A stretch of 27,529 nucleotides of DNA from a virus. A program made the translations under genes and the position numbers. The notes beneath the pieces were generated by a model. It saw only the letters and a program-made list of their open reading frames with translations. It did no database searches and was not told the DNA's origin. The DNA is taken from positions 1 to 27,529 of the IMG/VR virus record IMGVR_UViG_3300033143_003041; one strand, 5' to 3'. Each line of letters starts with the position of its first letter. Within the stretch, counting starts at the first letter, position 1. Shown here piece by piece: positions 10,080 through 22,072 of the stretch.

Positions 10080-11570
10080 TTAAGGTAAACTAGATAGGTC
10101 GTCGGCCAGGCCAGCGGCCCTCTTTTTAGTTTCCGGATGCGTGTCGGCCCTTTTTACTAATTTCCTTAAATAATCAATCCGTTCCTCGCGGGTTTTATTT
10201 TCCCATGAGCGAGGCGATTTACCTTTTTCAGTCTTAAAAGTATTTGATTCCGCTTGAATTGTTTGTTGTTCGGGTGTTAACGATTTCCAATATTCTTTTT
10301 TGTCGGCGATTTTAATAACCTTGGTTTCGGGTTCCGGGGCGGTAACGGTTGTTTCTACGGTAATTGCAATTTCAGTCGATTTAATATCAATGTTCGGCGG
10401 TTGATTATCATTACCAAGTTCCGGAATATTGCCGTCAATTGGTTTATGGGTTTCGCGAACCTCTTTTTCCTTTTTCGGTTTTTTAACTTTTTCTAATTTA
10501 ATCGAATAAGTTGTTGAGTTGGCCTTTTTAAAGTTATCTAGCTTTAATTCTAGAACGTTTTTTAAATCGCTTATCATTGACGCCATGTCTTGATAATTTT
10601 CATTTACCATATTGGAATAAACGAACTCTAAATTGTCCTTAAAACTGTTAAACGCCGAGGCGTAATCAATTGAACCGGCCTTGGTTCCTTGGGTCATTGT
10701 CAAGCCCTTGCAAACCATTTTTGGCGCATTTACAAGTTCCATTTTAAAAATCTCGATTTTTAGTTTCTTTTCCGTTGATTCCAACGGTTTTAACTTTTCC
10801 TTTAATGATATTATTTTTTCTTGGTTTTTCTTGTATTCGGTGACTTTTTTGCCAACATCAATATTTTTGATTTCTATAATGTCGGCCTCGGTTGCCGGGG
10901 GTTCAATGTTTTTGTCGATATATTCGGTTTGAAATTTAACGGCCGCCGGAATTAGGGTTTCGTTAATATATTCCATATTCAAAGGGACGACTTTTCGGAC
11001 ACTTTTATAAGTTTTTTTGCCGTGTTCGTCTAAAATGTAAACCAATTTATTGTCAACTTTTCTAGGCGTTAGCCCGTCGTCCTCGGTTTCAACTAGTTCC
11101 GTCGCCGCAATTAAGGCCATTTTTTTAGCGCCCGCGCACAAATATTGTTGTTGAATTTGGGGGTAATATTGAGGCAACGGAAACGGTTCACTTGAACCCG
11201 GTTCCCATAAAGCAACTGCAATATAGTCGTCCTGGCCGACATATTTAACCTCTATTCCCATTTTCCATTGCTCATTAAACCCGTCCATTGACGCCATTAA
11301 ATAATCAATTTGGTCGTGAATCCTAATCTCGGGCGGGAAATCGCAACCGGTTTCTAGTTCGATTTCGGCCCTCATTTTGGCCTCGATATAATGACCCTTC
11401 GCCGCTATAAATTCCATGTCGGATTCGGGTTTTCTAGGCGGTAAATCTTTTTTCTTTAAATACAAATCAAGCGGCGTCATAAAACCGGAAACGCCTAAAA
11501 TTATAGGAATATCCGACGCGCCAATTTTTAATTTTCTAAGGGCGTCCCATTCGGGTGTATTTTGTTGCAT
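10080..11570 (-). CDS. YqaJ-type viral exonuclease (lambda Exo-like)
   Basis: 496 residues. The nuclease domain covers the first 200 or so: IGASDIPIILG (17-26), GHYIEAKMR with Glu63, MASMDGF with Asp96, and GIEVKY with Glu107 and Lys109, the D-E-x-K arrangement of the PD-(D/E)XK YqaJ/lambda exonuclease family. It should chew one strand of double-stranded ends to give 3' tails for annealing. The C-terminal 230 residues are unusual: charged helices, a Thr/Glu/Pro-rich linker and a compact basic tail (SPRSWENKTREERIDYLRKL). The gene is the only minus-strand one in its neighbourhood; it is divergent from the Cro/Sak4/SSB block and its stop abuts the stop of the preceding plus-strand gene with no gap. 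Confidence 0.85.
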   Translation of the reverse strand: MQQNTPEWDALRKLKIGASDIPIILGVSGFMTPLDLYLKKKDLPPRKPESDMEFIAAKGHYIEAKMRAEIELETGCDFPPEIRIHDQIDYLMASMDGFNEQWKMGIEVKYVGQDDYIAVALWEPGSSEPFPLPQYYPQIQQQYLCAGAKKMALIAATELVETEDDGLTPRKVDNKLVYILDEHGKKTYKSVRKVVPLNMEYINETLIPAAVKFQTEYIDKNIEPPATEADIIEIKNIDVGKKVTEYKKNQEKIISLKEKLKPLESTEKKLKIEIFKMELVNAPKMVCKGLTMTQGTKAGSIDYASAFNSFKDNLEFVYSNMVNENYQDMASMISDLKNVLELKLDNFKKANSTTYSIKLEKVKKPKKEKEVRETHKPIDGNIPELGNDNQPPNIDIKSTEIAITVETTVTAPEPETKVIKIADKKEYWKSLTPEQQTIQAESNTFKTEKGKSPRSWENKTREERIDYLRKLVKRADTHPETKKRAAGLADDLSSLP

Positions 11571-11623: not shown

Positions 11624-11663
11624 ATTGTTCCGTCAACCAAAATTTAAAAACAAGGGCAATCAA

Positions 11664-11843
11664 ATGATTAAACGATTGAAAACCAGGATTAAAAGGGACG
11701 GTATTAACGTTGTCGCAACTGCGCTAGGTTATCGCTCGCCGTCAACCGTTTATACTTGGATTAGAAACGGCGAAATTCCGGACTTAGCTAAAACCAAGGT
11801 TCGTAATTACTTGAGAAACAACAAAAAGAAAAAGGCTTTATAA
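11664..11843 (+). CDS. Cro-like helix-turn-helix regulator
   Basis: 59 residues from the ATG at 11664, chosen because AAGGG lies about 10 bases upstream; in-frame codons at 11625 would place the start inside the operator-rich gap. The centre reads NVVATALGYRSPSTVYTWIRNGEIP, a helix-turn-helix in which the second helix (SPSTVYTWI) would contact DNA, like Cro and other minimal phage repressors. The C-terminus is basic (RNYLRNNKKKKAL). It leads the Sak4/SSB block and is coupled to it by a TAATG overlap. It probably represses or times the divergent promoters in the gap upstream. Confidence 0.7.
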   Translation: MIKRLKTRIKRDGINVVATALGYRSPSTVYTWIRNGEIPDLAKTKVRNYLRNNKKKKAL

Positions 11844-12814
11844 TGGCAACTAAACTATTATTTGGAAAACAAATGTCGCCGGATTACGGCATTATTATGG
11901 GCGTTCCCGGTGTTGGTAAAACTTCATTTCTAGCGGGTTGGACCGATCTAGTTAATAATGTTGAACACCCCGGCGCGCCTAACTGCGTTTTGCTTGGCCC
12001 TGAAAATATCGCCGAGGCAAATTGCGCTAAGTTCCCCAAATCCGAAACCTATCAACAATTATTAGGTCAAATTAACGAACTGTTAAATGGCGAACATGAC
12101 GACAAAAAATTTGAAACCGTCGGAATTGATTCGTTAGACATGGTTGAAAAGTTGATTCATAAAGAGATTTGCGAGCGCGCCAAGGTTGATAATATCGACT
12201 CATTTAATTATGGAAAAGGGCGAGCGCAAACGATTGCGGACCTCATTAAGTTCGAGGAACTTGTTTATCGCCTGGTAAAAGAAAAAGGTTTGTCGGTTTG
12301 GTATATTGCTCATTGTGTTGCAATGGACGTCAACGACCCGGTTCTAGGTTTAAATTATATGAATTACGAATTGGCCTTGCATAAATCTAAAAAAATGGAC
12401 GCGTCTAAAAATTTCGTCGACAAGGTTTCGACAATCTTATTCGCGAATCATAAATTAGTGAAAACTAAAGACGGTTACGCAAAATCAACGGAACAACGTG
12501 GTTTATTTACCGAGTTTAGGCCTGGCCATTTGGCAAAAAATCGTTATGGGTTTCCGTATGAATTGCCTTTAGAGTATGATCAATATGCCTATGGGAAAAA
12601 TTTGTTTTACTCGGGCGGGGTTTCGACTCAACAACTAGCGAATAGCGGGGCGGCCGAATATAACAGGGTTTTAAACGAGACCTATAAACTAATCAACGAA
12701 AATAGTATAGACGTTTCCATGGTTCAAAATATCGAGCAATCTATTCAAATGACCAACGGAAACCTCGACGAATTAAATCGAATTCATAATAAAGTTTTAA
12801 CATTGGTTCAATAA
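11843..12814 (+). CDS. Sak4-like RecA-fold ATPase (AAA_24)
   Basis: 323 residues. Walker A is GVPGVGKT at residues 20-27, and the Walker B-like strand is ETVGIDSLD near 91-99. This short RecA-fold ATPase with IGYGKG-like elements is typical of the AAA_24 phage group that includes Sak4 recombinases, which anneal or exchange single strands with help from a phage SSB. The SSB-like gene follows directly, a pairing seen for Sak4 systems, and the YqaJ exonuclease lies divergently upstream. A segment around residues 185-210 (KMDASKNFVDKVSTILFANH) fits the C-terminal half of the family core. The last 60 residues are helical. Another AAA_24 role is less likely given the neighbours. Confidence 0.75.
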   Translation: MATKLLFGKQMSPDYGIIMGVPGVGKTSFLAGWTDLVNNVEHPGAPNCVLLGPENIAEANCAKFPKSETYQQLLGQINELLNGEHDDKKFETVGIDSLDMVEKLIHKEICERAKVDNIDSFNYGKGRAQTIADLIKFEELVYRLVKEKGLSVWYIAHCVAMDVNDPVLGLNYMNYELALHKSKKMDASKNFVDKVSTILFANHKLVKTKDGYAKSTEQRGLFTEFRPGHLAKNRYGFPYELPLEYDQYAYGKNLFYSGGVSTQQLANSGAAEYNRVLNETYKLINENSIDVSMVQNIEQSIQMTNGNLDELNRIHNKVLTLVQ

Positions 12815-12843
12815 CGAACCTATTTTAACAAAGGAATAATAAG

Positions 12844-13662
12844 ATGCAAGAAGGTAAATACCGCGCGAGACTTGTCCAATATGGTTTTTTATCGGGCAAC
12901 GTGGACCCCGCGACCGGTCAAGAACGACCGCCGCAATTTTTCGCCCAATTTAGCTTTAAAGATGAAACCGACGCCAATAAAAAGGAAACTTGGTTTGGCG
13001 GGTTCAAGGAATTACAACCCGGTAAAAAAACGAGTCAAAAACAAATCACGTTCGACACCATTGAACTGTTAGGCTACACCGGAACCCAAATCGCCTCGTT
13101 AGCGGGCGGCGTTCAATCGGGAATTTTGAACACCGAAAAAGAATTTGAAATTGATATGGCCTACCAAAAAGATGCAATGGGCGCAGTTAAATGCGACGAC
13201 AAAGGTAATCCTCGTTTTCAAATTCAATGGGTTAATGACCCCGAAAAAACTGGATTTAAAAACCTAATGACAACTCAAGACGCCGCCGTAAAAATTGGCG
13301 GACTAAATCTAGACGCGGACATTATGGCATCAAGGGCCGAAAAGGGCGGCGGACAAGCGCAAACCGGTTTTAATACTCAACAAAATAATGGTCAACAAAA
13401 TAATGGTCAACAAAATAATGGCGGCGGTCATGTTGCGAATAATGGGCAAAACAGCGCCCAAAATTATCAACAAAATAACGGGCAACAAAACAACAATGGT
13501 CAAAATAACGGCCAACAAAACAACGGGCAACAAAACTTTCAACAAAACAATGGTCAAAATAATGGCCAACAAAATTTTCAACAACCGCCTAATAACGGGC
13601 AAAACCAACAACAACACAATCAAAATATGGGATTCAATCAAAAAGGCGAACCGCCCTTTTAA
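12844..13662 (+). CDS. SSB-like protein with long Q/N-rich tail
   Basis: 272 residues. The first 160 look like an OB-fold-bearing DNA-binding protein: GKYRARLVQYGFL, then PPQFFAQFSFKDE, ETWFGGF, and a QIQWVND strand. Residues about 171-266 are almost only Gln, Asn and Gly, encoded by imperfect 15-base repeats. The final residues GEPPF resemble the acidic/aromatic SSB tip (bacterial SSBs end in a DIPF motif), which recruits partner proteins. Location right after the Sak4-like ATPase supports a recombination SSB. The Q/N tail is much longer and more uniform than usual SSB linkers. A strong terminator follows. The fold is inferred from pattern and context, not proven. Confidence 0.66.
   Translation: MQEGKYRARLVQYGFLSGNVDPATGQERPPQFFAQFSFKDETDANKKETWFGGFKELQPGKKTSQKQITFDTIELLGYTGTQIASLAGGVQSGILNTEKEFEIDMAYQKDAMGAVKCDDKGNPRFQIQWVNDPEKTGFKNLMTTQDAAVKIGGLNLDADIMASRAEKGGGQAQTGFNTQQNNGQQNNGQQNNGGGHVANNGQNSAQNYQQNNGQQNNNGQNNGQQNNGQQNFQQNNGQNNGQQNFQQPPNNGQNQQQHNQNMGFNQKGEPPF
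13378..13422 (+). repeat. Three tandem 15-base units within the SSB-like gene
   Basis: Three consecutive copies of CAACAAAATAATGGT (the third ends in C) encode repeated Gln-Gln-Asn-Asn-Gly. More degenerate copies continue to about 13630. The array stays in frame and probably expands or contracts by slippage. Confidence 0.85.
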
Positions 13663-13685
13663 TAGAATTTTGTAAATTAGCATTT

Positions 13686-13711
13686 GGCCGGGTTCGCCCG
13701 GCCATTTTTTT
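13686..13711 (+). terminator. Rho-independent terminator with UUCG tetraloop
   Basis: A 7-base-pair stem, GGCCGGG/CCCGGCC, closes a TTCG tetraloop and is followed by A and seven T. It lies 23 bases after the SSB-like stop and ends the Cro-Sak4-SSB transcript. Confidence 0.92.
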
Positions 13712-13733
13712 AAACTAAAACATTTCGGTAACA

Positions 13734-14393
13734 ATGATAAAATATAATTTCGTTTGCGATTTAGAATTTACAGCGTTGGACCCAATGAGGGGGCAAATTA
13801 TCGAATGCGCCTTGTTGGTCATTGATGCCGTTACGTTAGAGGTTGTAAACGAGTTCTATTGCCAGGTAAGGCCCGAGCAAATAAACGCTCTAACGTGGAC
13901 CCAACGGGCCCAAGACGTCCACAAAATAACACCCCAACAAGCAATGGCATTCACTCACTCTAGACGAGATTTTTGTTTTGCATTGTTAAATTTCTTGGCC
14001 CCATACTATTTCGAATGCCTAGAACCGCAACCGTTTGTTTGTCATTCACTCGATAAGGGTTTTATGGGAAAAGAAAATTTTTCCTGGCCTTACATTGATT
14101 TTCATTTTTTAGATTGGGCATTTCGTTATGAAAATCTAGAATTATCTTTTTGGAAAATAATAAACCAGGGCCGTTTATTGTCAACGATAACCATGGCCCG
14201 CGAATTTGGGTTATTTGCCCGCAATAAAATTACCGACGTCAACGGAAAAGTTTCAAATAGAAAAAGTTACAAATTAAATTTATTATGCCCGCTAGTCGGG
14301 TTTGTTTTAGATCACCATAAAGCAATGGCCGATGCCTATGGTTGTTTGGCCATAATGCGACATTGTCGCCAAAACGAGGGGGTTCTAGCGTGA
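13734..14393 (+). CDS. DnaQ-like DEDDh 3'-5' exonuclease
   Basis: 219 residues. Exo I is CDLEFTALDP (Asp9, Glu11), followed by the usual GQIIECALLVID strand. Exo II is plausibly CHSLDKGF (His104 to Asp107), and Exo III is LDHHKAMADA with His195 and Asp200, preceded by a YKLNLLCPL helix as in RNase T/DnaQ members. It should remove nucleotides from 3' ends of DNA or RNA, acting in proofreading, end trimming or repair. The region between Exo II and III is longer than in minimal family members. It opens the block after the terminator; the ribosome binding site is weak (GGTAAC). Its stop overlaps the GTG of a tiny membrane gene. Confidence 0.78.
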   Translation: MIKYNFVCDLEFTALDPMRGQIIECALLVIDAVTLEVVNEFYCQVRPEQINALTWTQRAQDVHKITPQQAMAFTHSRRDFCFALLNFLAPYYFECLEPQPFVCHSLDKGFMGKENFSWPYIDFHFLDWAFRYENLELSFWKIINQGRLLSTITMAREFGLFARNKITDVNGKVSNRKSYKLNLLCPLVGFVLDHHKAMADAYGCLAIMRHCRQNEGVLA

Positions 14394-15512: not shown

Positions 15513-15809
15513 ATGCAAAAAATGGAACAATTTTTAAGTGAACAAAAAGAATTTTCCGAAAAAGTTTTTATTCACGGAACGACTAGTTCCGTTATGGAAC
15601 ACTTGAGGCGCGAGACAAGGGAAATTGAGCGAAAACCCGACGACCTATCAGAATGGGCCGACGTATTTTTGTTATTTCTCGACGGTTTGTGGCGAAATGG
15701 TTTCACTTTTACGCAACTATTTAAAGCGGCCCAAACTAAATTAAAAATAAATAAATCAAGAAAATGGAAAAAACCGGACGCCCAAGGCGTTGTCGAGCAT
15801 GTTAAATAA
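15513..15809 (+). CDS. DUF550 dATP/dGTP pyrophosphohydrolase (MazG-like)
   Basis: 98 residues. The family core is intact: RRETREIE (Glu34, Glu37) followed by DDLSEWADVFLLFLDGLWRN (Glu47, Asp50), the paired ExxE/ExxD metal-binding motif of all-alpha NTP pyrophosphatases, and the tail TQLFKAAQTKLKINKSRKW typical of DUF550. It should hydrolyse dNTPs to dNMP and pyrophosphate. In phages this can alter nucleotide pools or the ppGpp response, or feed DNA modification. AGGGG precedes the ATG. It sits between the methyltransferase and a helicase, so it is probably co-expressed with both. Confidence 0.82.
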   Translation: MQKMEQFLSEQKEFSEKVFIHGTTSSVMEHLRRETREIERKPDDLSEWADVFLLFLDGLWRNGFTFTQLFKAAQTKLKINKSRKWKKPDAQGVVEHVK

Positions 15810-17524
15810 TGGGCTACGAACTACGAGACTACCAACTAAAAGCAAAACAAATGATTTCCAGGGCATTTGCCCAAGGTCATAAAAAAGTTATGTTATGGGC
15901 CATGACGGGCGCGGGAAAAGGCTTTTCCATGTCCGACTTTAACGACACGGCCCTGAAATCAAATCAACGCGTTTTAAATGTAATGAAACGACGGGCGATT
16001 ATTTTTCAGACAATCGAAAATTATGCTAAATATCATGGTTTAAAACCCTCGCCAATTATGGGGACCGTTAAAGGTAACGACCCAAATAATTTTTGCCAAG
16101 TTGCCAGCATTGACACGTTGAGGGCCAGGATTAAAACCGGTCAATATGATTGGTTGAAACAATTTGATTTAATAATAATAGACGAATGCCATGATTTAAC
16201 CTCTAGGTCCTATAAAACACTTATTTGGTTTCTAGAGGGTTTTGATGTTGACCATTATTCGGACAAAAATTTTGAAAATACCAAGGCCAATTTTAAGAAA
16301 TATTATATCGGTTTAACTGCGACACCATTTCGAGTTGGAAACCGCGCCCATACTTTTTGGGACGTTGTTGTTAAACCTATTGAGGCCCATGAGTTGCGGG
16401 ACCTAGGCGTTTTAGTTCCAACCCGTGAGTTCCAACCATTTGTTATCGACGTTAAAGGGATTAGATTAAACAGCGTTGGCGAATTCAGTCAAAACGAACT
16501 ATTTGAACGTTGCACTCAAATGGGAATTGTTGGAAATGTTGTTGAGACATATAAAAAATATGGTTTTATTGACGGTCGATTTTTACCGGCGATATATTTT
16601 TGTGTTAACAAGGCCCATGCTAAAATTCAAACTAAGGCATTCAACGACGCCGGGATTCCGGCCAGGTATTGCGACGATTCACATACTCAAAAAGAGAGGG
16701 ACAAGGCCAAGGCCGATCTAAAAAAAGGCGTCATACACGTTTTATTAAATGTAATGTTATTTTCCGTTGGTTTTGACGCGCCATTTATTGAGGTTGGCGG
16801 TTTTTTACGACCGACGGAATCCGAGAATCTAGCGGGCCAACAATGGGGGCGGGTTCTACGCCCTTATAAGATTTGCGAGCGTTGCGGGACCGAATACGGC
16901 GGCGACCCGACTTGCTTTAAATGCGGTTCAAATATTTTAAAGTTCGAAAAGAAATTTGCGATTATTTTAGACCATGCCGCCAATTTGCAGCGACACCCCG
17001 GAAAAAAAATGATTGGCAATAGTGTCGTTTACGCCATTAGAGAGGCCGAATTAAATGACCGAGACATTGCCCATAAAAACGCGCAACTAAGCGGCAAACC
17101 TAAGGAATGCCCGGATTGCGACGGAATTCTATTCCCCTCGGCGACTGTTTGCGAATATTGCGGTTATGAATATGGCGATTCCAGCGACAACGACCCTGGT
17201 ATTAATGAACAAGACGGCGAACTAGTTGAGGCCAATGCCGATTTTTTACGGGAACAATTAAAGGCAAAAATAGAATCCAGGTTTAAAGGTTATGAAACCG
17301 CCCAACGGTTAAGGCGCTGGCCGAATGAAACTAAATATTTCAAAATTTACGAGGATTTTGGGAACGATATTTTTATGTTAAATTTTAAGCTTGGAATAAA
17401 TGAAACGCTCGAAACGAATTTAAGAAAAAAGGGCGAACAACAACGATTAAAAGATTTGAATAGTAATACCGAAAAATTACTTGCAAGTTTGAACTATAAA
17501 AACGAGGCGGTTGTTAATGATTGA
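15809..17524 (+). CDS. SF2 DEAD/DEAH-type helicase with two zinc ribbons
   Basis: 571 residues. The Q-motif-like start is ELRDYQLKAKQMI. Walker A is MTGAGKG at 32-38, lacking the usual Ser/Thr after Lys. Walker B is IIIDECH at 121-127. Motif III is GLTATPF (167-173), and motif VI is QQWGRVLRP (343-351). Two zinc ribbons are inserted or appended: CERCG...CFKCG (Cys 355, 358, 368, 371) and CPDCD...CEYCG (433, 436, 447, 450). It should unwind nucleic acid; family members act in phage replication and recombination. ATG overlaps the previous stop (TAATG). The C-terminal 110 residues are charged and of unknown role. Confidence 0.85.
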   Translation: MGYELRDYQLKAKQMISRAFAQGHKKVMLWAMTGAGKGFSMSDFNDTALKSNQRVLNVMKRRAIIFQTIENYAKYHGLKPSPIMGTVKGNDPNNFCQVASIDTLRARIKTGQYDWLKQFDLIIIDECHDLTSRSYKTLIWFLEGFDVDHYSDKNFENTKANFKKYYIGLTATPFRVGNRAHTFWDVVVKPIEAHELRDLGVLVPTREFQPFVIDVKGIRLNSVGEFSQNELFERCTQMGIVGNVVETYKKYGFIDGRFLPAIYFCVNKAHAKIQTKAFNDAGIPARYCDDSHTQKERDKAKADLKKGVIHVLLNVMLFSVGFDAPFIEVGGFLRPTESENLAGQQWGRVLRPYKICERCGTEYGGDPTCFKCGSNILKFEKKFAIILDHAANLQRHPGKKMIGNSVVYAIREAELNDRDIAHKNAQLSGKPKECPDCDGILFPSATVCEYCGYEYGDSSDNDPGINEQDGELVEANADFLREQLKAKIESRFKGYETAQRLRRWPNETKYFKIYEDFGNDIFMLNFKLGINETLETNLRKKGEQQRLKDLNSNTEKLLASLNYKNEAVVND

Positions 17525-18939: not shown

Positions 18940-21501
18940 GTGAGTTTTCAAGAAAAACTAAATTCCGAAATTATATCGAAAATAGGGCCTAACTTTCAAT
19001 TGCCCGAAATCCCGTTCGACGGGACCAACGTTCGTTTCGACATTGAAAAACAGGGCGACAAGGCCGGTTGGGTTTATGTTAACCCTTGGGACTATAAAGG
19101 AAACGAGCAATTTACCGCAACGTTTGGGTCATGGCGCGCAGGGGTTCAATTTAAAGTAACAAGTTACGACCCTAGAAATGTTGATAAATCCTTTATGAAG
19201 GCCGAGAAAAAGAAAATCCAAGAAACGCAACAAGCAATCGCCGAGCAAAAACAATTAAAATATAAACAATGTCGCGAAAAATGGGGGCCAATTTATGAGT
19301 CGTTACCTACCAACGGGAATTTACACCCGTATTGTGAGTATAAAAAAATTAACTCTAACTATTTTGGCCGGGTTGATTTTAACGGTGTTCTATATATTCC
19401 TAGTTGGAACGAGCGCGGTTTTGTTGGTTGTCAACGTATTTTTGCCAACCCCGAATACTCTAATTCGTCTAACAAGGATTCTAAGCGGTTCACTAAACGT
19501 TATACATTTGGAATCGAAAAGTTAGGTTCGTTTTGTCCGTTTGGGAATATTAGAAACGCGGAATTTGTTTTTATTGGCGAGGGTTTCGCAACCGGCGCGA
19601 GCGTATTCGAGGCCGTCGGTTCCGATAATCATGCCGTTGCAATAGTTTGGGACACGTCCAATATTTATGCCGGCATGGTGTCGATTAGAAAAATAAACCC
19701 TAATTGTAAATTTATAATTTGCTCGGACCGGGACATTCACGCCGAACCGCATTTGCATAATATCGGCGAGAAAAAAGCAAAACAAGCGGCCTTTAAATTC
19801 TCAAATTGCATCGTTAGAACGGTCAAATTCCCCGATGGTAACGAAACATGGTCGGACTATAATGATTTACATTGTTTCGAGGGTATAGACGCAGTTAAGG
19901 AACAATTAGAAATTGACGCCGCCGATTTTGTCGAAATTGTCCCCTTAGGATATAACGAAAAAAAGAATTATTATTTTGCGACCCATCAAAAAAGAATTTT
20001 TGCCCTTACCGCTAACGAGCATAATCAAAACCAATTTTTGTTAATGGCCCCCGAAAAGTATTGGGGCGACCGTTACGGTTGGTTAAAAGATGCCGAGGGC
20101 GAAAAGACGACGGCCAACTATAAAAAGGTTGTTGAAAAATTAGGAATAGAACAAACAAAGGCCGGGTTTTTTAACCCCGAAAATATTAGGGGAAAAGGTT
20201 GTTGGTTTGAGAACGACGAAATTGCGGTCAATTTAGGCGACCAAATTTATTATAAGGGCGAATATAAACCAATTTTCAACCATGATATTAAAACTAATTT
20301 CTTTTATGAGGCCGGGGAATCGGTCGAGGTTGATTTTAATTCTCAACTTAATTACGAACAAGCAACCATTGTCTCGGATGCTTTTAAAAAGTTGAGATAT
20401 AAAAACCCCAACGATTATATTTTTCTGTTAGGTTGGATTGCAATAGCTCAAATTGCGGGGGCCGTTCATTGGCGACCCCATATTTATCTAACAGGTTCTA
20501 GAGGTTCGGGAAAATCAACCATTTTAGATTGGATTTATTCAATGATTCCGTTGTCCATTTCCGTTACCGATGCAACCGCCGCCGGCATTAAGCAGAATTT
20601 AAAAAACAATGCCAAGGCCGTTGTTTACGACGAATCCGAACCCAACTCGGAAAAGGACCGCAACCAAATGGACGAGGTTATTAAGTTGGCCCGCCATTGC
20701 TCAACTAGAACGAGCGGAAAAGCGTTAAGGGGAACGGCGGGCGGAAAAGCAATTTCCTATAATACCAACGCCATTTTTTGCCTTGGTTCAATCCAAAAAC
20801 TTAATTTCAATTCGGCGGACGATTCTAGGTTTTTCGTTATCGAAATGGACTCGGTTAAAGGCCAGGAACATGACGAGCTAGTTGAAATCGAGCGATTAAT
20901 GGGCGAGGCCAAAAAACTCGCGCCAATGCTGTTTTCGCGCATGGTTAATCATTACAAAATAACAATGCAAAATATTGAGTTATGCAAAATTCATTTGAAA
21001 AAATTAAAATATGAGGCGCGTTTAGCCGATCAACTGGCCCCTATTTTGTCCGGGTATTTTTCTTTTTTTAGTAATGAGTTAATCGAATCCGACACCATCG
21101 ACGAGTTAATTAAAATGATTGATTTCAAAGGTTCGGATTATGTCGAGGCCAATGCCGAGTCGGATGCCGAAAAATGTTTGTCGATTATAATGCAATTGTC
21201 GCCGGACAATAGTTCAATGTCAGTTTCGCAAATAATTGAACTAATGAGGATGAACCCAAACCCGGCAAATTTTGAGTTACATAATAGAACGCTGGCATTC
21301 AATGGAATAAGGTTCGACTATAAAAACAACGAATTATTTTTTGTTGCGGGCAACGTTCATTTAAAAGATAAATTGCGCAAGGTTTCGAACTACTCGGATT
21401 ATATCGGTTTACTGAAAAGGCATAATAAATTTAGTGGTTATAAAAATAATTGGATTAGTGGCGAAACTCGAAAGGGCGTCCATATAAGGTTGGGGAAATA
21501 A
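18940..21501 (+). CDS. Toprim primase-helicase
   Basis: 853 residues from a GTG with AAGGT upstream. The N-terminal part holds a Toprim primase: FVFIGEGFATGASV with Glu214 (209-222), CSDRD (261-265), and a later DYNDLH (306-311), as in phage and plasmid Toprim primases. A zinc-binding Cys pattern at the very N-terminus is not evident. A C-terminal helicase/ATPase (about 490-720) has Walker A TGSRGSGKS (518-526) and Walker B VVYDESEP (561-568), then an arginine-rich stretch (ARHCSTRTSGKALRG), resembling DUF927/D5-type helicases. The protein probably primes and unwinds at the phage origin. The last 150 residues may contact partner proteins. It is the lead gene of the rightmost plus-strand block and overlaps the CsrA-like gene. 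Confidence 0.85.
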   Translation: MSFQEKLNSEIISKIGPNFQLPEIPFDGTNVRFDIEKQGDKAGWVYVNPWDYKGNEQFTATFGSWRAGVQFKVTSYDPRNVDKSFMKAEKKKIQETQQAIAEQKQLKYKQCREKWGPIYESLPTNGNLHPYCEYKKINSNYFGRVDFNGVLYIPSWNERGFVGCQRIFANPEYSNSSNKDSKRFTKRYTFGIEKLGSFCPFGNIRNAEFVFIGEGFATGASVFEAVGSDNHAVAIVWDTSNIYAGMVSIRKINPNCKFIICSDRDIHAEPHLHNIGEKKAKQAAFKFSNCIVRTVKFPDGNETWSDYNDLHCFEGIDAVKEQLEIDAADFVEIVPLGYNEKKNYYFATHQKRIFALTANEHNQNQFLLMAPEKYWGDRYGWLKDAEGEKTTANYKKVVEKLGIEQTKAGFFNPENIRGKGCWFENDEIAVNLGDQIYYKGEYKPIFNHDIKTNFFYEAGESVEVDFNSQLNYEQATIVSDAFKKLRYKNPNDYIFLLGWIAIAQIAGAVHWRPHIYLTGSRGSGKSTILDWIYSMIPLSISVTDATAAGIKQNLKNNAKAVVYDESEPNSEKDRNQMDEVIKLARHCSTRTSGKALRGTAGGKAISYNTNAIFCLGSIQKLNFNSADDSRFFVIEMDSVKGQEHDELVEIERLMGEAKKLAPMLFSRMVNHYKITMQNIELCKIHLKKLKYEARLADQLAPILSGYFSFFSNELIESDTIDELIKMIDFKGSDYVEANAESDAEKCLSIIMQLSPDNSSMSVSQIIELMRMNPNPANFELHNRTLAFNGIRFDYKNNELFFVAGNVHLKDKLRKVSNYSDYIGLLKRHNKFSGYKNNWISGETRKGVHIRLGK

Positions 21502-21713
21502 TGGGAAATTGCGGAGTAAAAGGAAAAGGTGGCGTTACTGTTAGGTTAGAAAAAGGCGAATCCGTTTATATTGGAAACGATATTGAGGTTATTGTTCAAA
21601 AAAATAATAGTCCCGGTTCAACTCAAACAAATTTAAGGATTATTGCGCCAAGGGATAAAAGGGTTATTCGCAGCAATTACAACGGGGACAAACCAAACGA
21701 GGTTAAGAAATGA
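21501..21713 (+). CDS. CsrA-like RNA-binding regulator
   Basis: 70 residues. After a short leader, residues 12-59 align with CsrA/RsmA: VRLEKGESVYIGNDIEVIV (Gly19-Glu20, Ile24-Gly25, Asp27-Ile28), a variable loop, then LRIIAPRDKRVIR (Leu45, Arg46, Ala49-Pro50, Val55, Arg57). CsrA proteins are dimers that bind GGA in leader RNAs and block or alter translation. The loop is somewhat longer than in E. coli CsrA and the usual N-terminal LTRR is changed to VRLEK, so RNA-binding affinity is uncertain. The start overlaps the primase-helicase stop (TAATG). It may regulate host or phage messages; a tudor-like or other small beta protein is a less likely alternative. Confidence 0.66.
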   Translation: MGNCGVKGKGGVTVRLEKGESVYIGNDIEVIVQKNNSPGSTQTNLRIIAPRDKRVIRSNYNGDKPNEVKK

Positions 21714-22072
21714 AAACGGAACAATGGAAAAAACACAACGACAAATACGCGGTTTCCTCATGGGGGCGATTCTATAACCTGGAAACTAAAAAGTTTATTA
21801 AAGGCCATTTGCATCAATCCAATGGCGGGACATATAGACGGGTTAAGTTTGGCGAACTTAGGGTAATGGCCCATGTTCTCGTTGCTTATTACTTTAAAAT
21901 ACCGCCCAAGTTTTTTGTTTTAGGCGGTTATCATAGTTGGGTTGTTAACCATTTGGACGGGAACACTTTAAACAATAACGAAAATAATGTTGAGTTTTCA
22001 ACGCAATCTAGAAATGTCAGTCATTGGCATTTATTAAAAAAGGGGCCTAGTTTTGAAATCGGACTATATTGA
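21710..22072 (+). CDS. HNH homing-type endonuclease
   Basis: 120 residues. The N-terminal NUMOD4-like part reads YAVSSWGRFYNLETKKFIKG; the HNH core is VAYYF followed by VVNHLDGNTLNNNENNVEF and STQSRNVSHW, with the His-Asn pattern of the HNH_3 family. It should nick or cut DNA, often as a free-standing mobile gene that spreads between related phages. GAGG upstream and an ATGA overlap with the CsrA-like gene place it in the operon. No intron is seen around it, so it is not intron-borne. Confidence 0.85.
   Translation: MKTEQWKKHNDKYAVSSWGRFYNLETKKFIKGHLHQSNGGTYRRVKFGELRVMAHVLVAYYFKIPPKFFVLGGYHSWVVNHLDGNTLNNNENNVEFSTQSRNVSHWHLLKKGPSFEIGLY

Follow-up and report, generated by a model that had tools for sequence, protein, structure and literature searches.

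The gene at positions 12844–13662 of a 27.5-kb IMG/VR virus record (27,529 nucleotides; the whole of this stretch is hereafter called the window) very probably encodes an SSB cognate to the Sak4-like recombinase encoded upstream of it, whose domain would coat ssDNA, whose linker would hold out a C-terminal tip and whose tip would recruit Sak4. Observed here are the domain homology, the gene order, the OB-like model, the predicted disorder of the linker and the resemblance of the tip to those of other SSBs; ssDNA binding, tetramer formation and tip-dependent stimulation of Sak4 are what the SSB of phage HK620 would lead one to expect. The core of the protein is thus that of an ordinary Sak4-cognate SSB, joined to an unusual linker, and the sequence-only reading that first singled out this gene had described the feature correctly. 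In the following sections, we describe the gene and its relatives, its pairing with sak4, the tip and the linker, and weigh what the linker may do.

The gene and the architecture of its product

In the window, contractile-tail baseplate genes precede a replication and recombination module. The start of the SSB-like gene is well defined: an AAAGGA sequence at 12830–12835 stands 8 bases 5′ of the ATG at 12844, and because the open frame continues upstream for five codons at most, there is no competing start. The first 169 of the 272 residues form a domain of ordinary composition. Our analysis confirmed that the feature is real and combines an OB-like N-terminal domain, a charge-free linker and a GEPPF end.

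12844–13662, plus strand: gene for the putative Sak4-cognate SSB-like protein, 272 aa (from the ORF list; ATG start)
12844–13248, plus strand: predicted OB-like domain, residues 1–135 (AlphaFold2 model)
13249–13350, plus strand: predicted helical C-terminal extension of the domain, residues 136–169, at lower confidence (helices 144–152 and 156–166, pLDDT 63–71)
13363–13641, plus strand: Q/N/G linker, residues 174–266, with no charged residues (composition; predicted disorder)
13377–13421, plus strand: 15-base repeat in three perfect copies, coding for QQNNG units (3.0 copies at 100% by Tandem Repeats Finder)
13468–13575, plus strand: imperfect 12-, 15- and 27-base repeat arrays in the linker (Tandem Repeats Finder)
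13645–13659, plus strand: GEPPF tip, the proposed partner-binding peptide (sequence; likeness to relatives and to the HK620 SSB)

Two other open frames overlap the linker. The frame at 13388–13675 on the plus strand was rejected, as it arises from the repeat codons, and the 134-codon frame at 13330–13734 on the minus strand is most likely no gene, since CAA and AAT codons read in antisense yield very hydrophobic Leu/Ile/Val repeats.

Homology and family placement

Direct searches with the window protein gave no match in Pfam or PHROG and, with tblastn, none among 50,697 phage records; sequence searches of the PDB returned chance-level titin- and kinase-like matches or nothing. At the curated Pfam cut-off, DUF669 (PF05037) does not match the protein, and the bacterial SSB model PF00436, which matches 12 of 14 control genomes, has no match in the window at E ≤1. 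No close relative was found in viral contigs with either the domain or the window sak4 alone as query; relatives were reached only through sak4 alignments. The window sak4 itself matches 180 phage records, including Bdellovibrio phage phi1422, whose gp09 shares 25.5% identity with the window domain across 145 residues; the local alignment scored 94, compared with at most 57 in 1000 shuffles. In the same local-alignment test against the window domain, proteins encoded next to Sak4 in five other phages scored no higher than shuffles.

Scans with sak4 alignments yielded 107 loci, consisting of the best 80 of at least 576 viral relatives and 27 loci from bacterial genomes; they are not independent of one another, several contigs appearing near-identical (for example L021, L022, L025 and L026). 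Among these 107 listed loci, phmmer with the window domain matched six of 278 downstream ORFs, each of which is the first ORF after sak4 (E-values 5.8e-10 for L024, 4.2e-8 for L051, 1.3e-6 for L010, 6.4e-6 for L034, 7.6e-5 for L012 and 0.0054 for L011). A profile built from these six proteins and phi1422 gp09, with the window protein excluded, recognized the window domain at 83.8 bits (E 8.4e-25); the best of 1000 shuffles reached 9.4 bits, and the top score among the 98 other frames of the window was 6.2. By this score, and through seven relatives that all lie directly downstream of sak4, the window protein shares the homologous domain of HK620-type Sak4-cognate SSBs.

Four of the eight members of the resulting alignment match phrog_378 SSB at E ≤0.1. 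Profile–profile comparison related the window group to the DUF669 group (probability 87, E 3.8e-6, 102 columns) but not with confidence to an acidic-tipped group, A6 (probability 25), which is itself clearly related to the DUF669 group (probability 95). Further family scans recovered phi1422 and the contig of L051 again and nothing else. Since the likeness appears between profiles while neither DUF669 nor PF00436 matches the protein itself, we name it a DUF669-like, Sak4-adjacent SSB and not a DUF669 protein.

Fold of the N-terminal domain

The sequence-only reading had taken the protein for SSB-like and proposed an OB-fold prediction for residues 1–160 as a check. The AlphaFold2 model of residues 1–169, built on 8 sequences, confidently predicts an OB-like fold (mean pLDDT 83.1), with a five-stranded barrel composed of strands 4–16, 31–39, 45–52, 100–107 and 125–131 and with helices 65–75 and 83–92 between strands 3 and 4. 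Together with the homology to Sak4-adjacent SSB-like proteins and the fold matches described below, this model supports the earlier assignment.

The first viral fold match to the domain was A0A6J5PKH0 (E 1.4e-12), followed by H9C0I3 (E 8.1e-11, 193 residues), which we take to be phi1422 gp09 on account of its length; among the 32 viral fold matches with E ≤0.001, four are named DUF669 and one SSB. Against the PDB, Foldseek with the domain model gave no match at E ≤0.001. A second structure aligner ranked PrgE of plasmid pCF10 first among solved structures (Z 8.6 over 104 residues, rmsd 3.2, 14% identity), with SSB chains at Z of about 5–6.5. As toxin B subunits and other unrelated OB domains also score within the Z 5–8 range, the structure matches indicate fold and not function, and the likeness to PrgE, the best solved OB-fold match, is one at the level of the fold only.

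Pairing with sak4

The genes surrounding the SSB-like gene include a recombinase, a divergent exonuclease and a terminator.

10080–11570, minus strand: RecE-like/YqaJ exonuclease gene, divergent from sak4–ssb (YqaJ E 3.7e-11; phrog_434 E 3.3e-28)
11625–11843, plus strand: small HTH gene 5′ of sak4 (weak HTH matches; position kept)
11843–12814, plus strand: sak4, encoding the proposed partner recombinase (phrog_124 Sak4-like E 8.6e-22; Pfam AAA_24 E 5.1e-22)
13685–13711, plus strand: intrinsic terminator after ssb (8-pair stem at 13685–13704 with 7 G–C pairs, then seven T)

The end of sak4 and the start of the SSB-like ORF are 29 bases apart, which makes the two genes neighbours. This setting recurs among the relatives, as the HTH gene has counterparts at the same place in three relative loci (L024, L010 and L011) and a RecE match lies upstream of sak4 on the opposite strand in six of the seven. 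With a strong terminator after ssb and an exonuclease gene at 13734 beyond it, sak4 and ssb appear to be transcribed together. It had been suggested from the sequence that the tail could concentrate the SSB, Sak4 and the exonuclease at replication sites. The functional link to Sak4 is strongly supported by the conserved gene order and by the HK620 experiments (PMC5928155); for the link to the exonuclease we found no specific evidence, and the terminator sets the exonuclease gene at 13734 apart from the sak4–ssb pair.

A closed ORF of 120–300 aa occurs among the first three downstream of sak4 at 94 of the 107 loci, and the other 13 were left out of the counts. In the loci listed, the first such ORF after sak4 matches DUF669 in 51 of the 94 cases and phrog_378 SSB in 52. 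The HK620 study states that up to 80% of sak4 genes adjoin an ssb gene (PMC5928155).

Further downstream, the primase-helicase encoded at 18940–21501 matches phi1422 with 26.2% identity over 85%, one of the best of its long matches, so that the whole replication module resembles that of phi1422. An HNH endonuclease gene (21710–22072; phrog_59, E 1.3e-19), possibly a mobile element, lies downstream of the primase-helicase gene.

The C-terminal tip and its candidate partners

The window protein ends in NQKGEPPF, with one acidic residue and a lysine next to the tip. We read this end as a partner-binding tip, because Sak4 binding and stimulation depend on the last six residues of the HK620 SSB, NDYPPF. 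According to the HK620 study, Sak4 alone anneals poorly, the DUF669 protein adjoining sak4 is a bona fide SSB that elutes as a probable tetramer, and without NDYPPF Sak4 no longer binds the coated DNA and is for the most part no longer stimulated (PMC5928155). GEPPF had been likened to the C-terminus of bacterial SSBs; it does resemble such ends, but it holds a single acidic residue, and the nearest published counterpart is NDYPPF and not the acidic DDDIPF. Judged against NDYPPF (PMC5928155), GEPPF qualifies as a tip of the SSB type. The relatives end in NIPF, EIPF, MPF, LPF, ISF or LTF, and the window tip is less acidic than most of these.

A PF-type tip closes 35 of the 94 first ORFs after sak4 in the loci listed and 6 of 799 control ORFs, the controls having been drawn from both strands and including many that are not genes. 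A W-type end, defined by a loose pattern, occurs in 44 of the same 94 ORFs and in 44 of the 799 controls. The tips of Sak4-adjacent SSB-like proteins (L010–L116) fall into two classes, PF-type (DEIPF, NIPF and others) and W-type (PPWKR, KKPWE and others). The W-type end is common in the DUF669 group and may represent a second partner-binding tip. The Sak4-adjacent SSB-like protein of a Pleomorphomonas MAG (L094:4742–5365) contains the stretch richest in Q/N among 81 neighbours compared (16 of 60 residues) and ends in DDDIPF. Shigella phage Sf11 gp09 (L006:5258–5779), encoded in the vicinity of Sak4 and a Gam-like gene, terminates in SNEPPMDFDDDIPF, the same end as that of E. coli SSB, as though the phage had copied the tip of its host.

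A further candidate partner is encoded downstream:

15809–17524, plus strand: RadD-like SF2 helicase, further candidate tip partner (RadD is the best match of solved structure, E 1.6e-10)

In E. coli, the C-terminus of SSB is bound by RadD (PMC10238739), and the RadD-like helicase of the window is therefore a second candidate partner of the tip. This protein has zinc-ribbon matches as well.

In the mechanism we propose, the OB-like domain would coat ssDNA arising from phage replication and end resection, and the long, flexible, uncharged Q/N/G linker would extend the GEPPF tip. The tip would then recruit Sak4 to the coated DNA, where Sak4 would anneal strands, and might also recruit the RadD-like helicase. 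The protein could instead be some other OB-fold component of the recombination module, as OB folds occur in many proteins and no family matches the window protein directly; this is improbable, as the evidence from family, gene order and tip speaks against it.

An extreme linker

The linker is the unusual part of the window protein. Residues 174–272 (99 aa) comprise 32 N, 30 Q and 16 G, which amounts to 63% Q+N and 79% Q+N+G; the tail is therefore dominated by these residues, as had been noted from the sequence, although the original wording, almost pure Gln/Asn/Gly, was slightly strong. Residues 174–266 contain no charged residue and five aromatic ones, spaced Phe and Tyr, with no Trp, Arg or Lys. 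Q+N content peaks at 45 of 60 and 56 of 80 residues. The next-best frame within the window reaches 15 of 60, and the maximum among 1182 stop-to-stop frames of at least 150 aa from the fetched loci is 16 of 60. In the full-length model, residues 169–247 and 249–272 have pLDDT <50 and no secondary structure. The window protein thus possesses a disordered Gly/Gln-rich linker, a trait of the E. coli-type condensing SSB, with the disorder being predicted.

The description of the tail as built from 15-base repeats holds within limits: three perfect copies lie at 13377–13421, and imperfect 12-, 15- and 27-base repeats follow up to 13575. A degenerate DNA pattern search for sequence encoding QQNNGQQNNG gave no match in other viral contigs. 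All seven relatives, among the matches listed, have short tails without Q/N enrichment, and the linker is therefore a feature of this phage or of a narrow lineage.

Comparison with known systems

A close published counterpart is the HK620 SSB (HkaK, DUF669), whose gene likewise adjoins sak4 and which has a DUF669-type domain and ends in PPF (PMC5928155). The window domain differs in being too divergent for a Pfam match, and its linker is Q/N-rich and uncharged, whereas the HK620 tail has three aspartates within its last 13 residues; its monomer is of 21.3 kDa, compared with 272 aa for the window protein. Phi1422 gp09 is also encoded directly 3′ of sak4, close to a divergent RecE gene, and has a weak phrog_378 SSB match, but at 193 aa it carries a charged, Lys/Glu-rich linker and ends in NDELPF.

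More distant likenesses are found among bacterial SSBs. E. coli SSB (PF00436) shares the layout of OB domain, disordered carboxamide- and Gly-rich linker and C-terminal partner-binding tip; its linker is Q/G-rich and includes Arg and Trp, whereas that of the window protein is N/Q-rich and has neither. Campylobacter hominis SSB also bears a prion-type region (PMC11175392); this is a bacterial protein whose prion behaviour was assayed in E. coli, whereas the window tail is known from its composition.

Possible roles of the linker

We consider it slightly more likely than not that the linker is a passive, expanded spacer, lengthened by slippage and tolerated as soluble and uncharged, so that domain and tip alone matter. 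The three perfect 15-base repeats are consistent with slippage, the Gln codons of the linker are all CAA (30 of 30), as they mostly are in eight other stretches of the phage (131 of 146), and short tails suffice in the relatives. Conversely, the repeats past 13468 are well diverged, mainly at third positions, and so are not all fresh, and the length of the linker and its zero charge over 93 residues are extreme. For the codon-position comparison, repeat pairs were picked by DNA identity, as picking QQNNG units by amino acids is circular and was dropped. Differences numbered 67 at third, 38 at first and 28 at second positions (172 columns each); the pairs overlap and are not independent, and no significance is claimed for these counts. 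The excess at third positions is a mild hint that the protein sequence has been kept.

That hint would fit a linker acting beyond a spacer, as a functional condensation domain that holds SSB, Sak4 and ssDNA in droplets at phage replication sites. We regard this as possible but doubtful, and place the passive spacer somewhat above it. The Q/N content (45 of 60), the absence of charge, the predicted disorder and the spaced aromatic residues all suit such a role, and E. coli SSB condenses through its own linker (PMC12143593). That linker, which dominates condensation, has 56 residues, with 11 Q, 17 G, R116, W136, F148 and R155, and Arg and Trp are discussed as contributors (PMC12143593). The window linker lacks Arg, Lys and Trp, and nearby charges are confined to the tip. 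The R116D-W136D change abolished condensation of E. coli SSB at every crowder level tested, though it also adds negative charge (PMC12143593). Moreover, none of the seven relatives, among the matches listed, has such a tail, so the family works without it, and no second Q/N-rich protein able to mix with the tail was found among the frames of the window. A list published in 2017 already includes phage SSBs predicted to have prion-like domains, one of them with a high PLAAC score of 45.89 (PMC5694896); these lend condensation some plausibility and also mean that prion-like phage SSB tails are not new as such.

Condensation as an additional property of the window protein is speculative. Its fullest form, a charge-free Q/N/G condensation domain added to a Sak4-cognate SSB that coats ssDNA and also builds a droplet-like recombination compartment, in which the tip gathers Sak4 and possibly the RadD-like helicase as well, appears rather unlikely. 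It is very improbable that the linker forms amyloid and works as a prion switch, comparable to the C. hominis SSB domain, which is one of three experimentally characterized bacterial prions and propagates as a prion in E. coli but has no known function (PMC11175392): the Q/N content of the linker is of the prion-domain type (56 of 80 residues), yet an amyloid SSB would presumably be costly during a short infection.

Implications

Our searches of open-licence papers turned up neither a Sak4-cognate SSB described with such a linker nor an account of condensation by a phage SSB. Sak4–SSB pairs are a widespread phage recombination module, in one of which the role of the tip has been proven. The window protein places about 100 uncharged Q/N/G residues between domain and tip, in contrast to the short linkers of its relatives, and therefore provides a natural test of how the length and composition of the linker bear on SSB condensation and on recruitment of the recombinase. 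If the linker is inert, the protein would still be a useful example of a prion-like composition that is not in itself a sign of function; if condensation is true, it would represent a phage-made, SSB-driven replication condensate.
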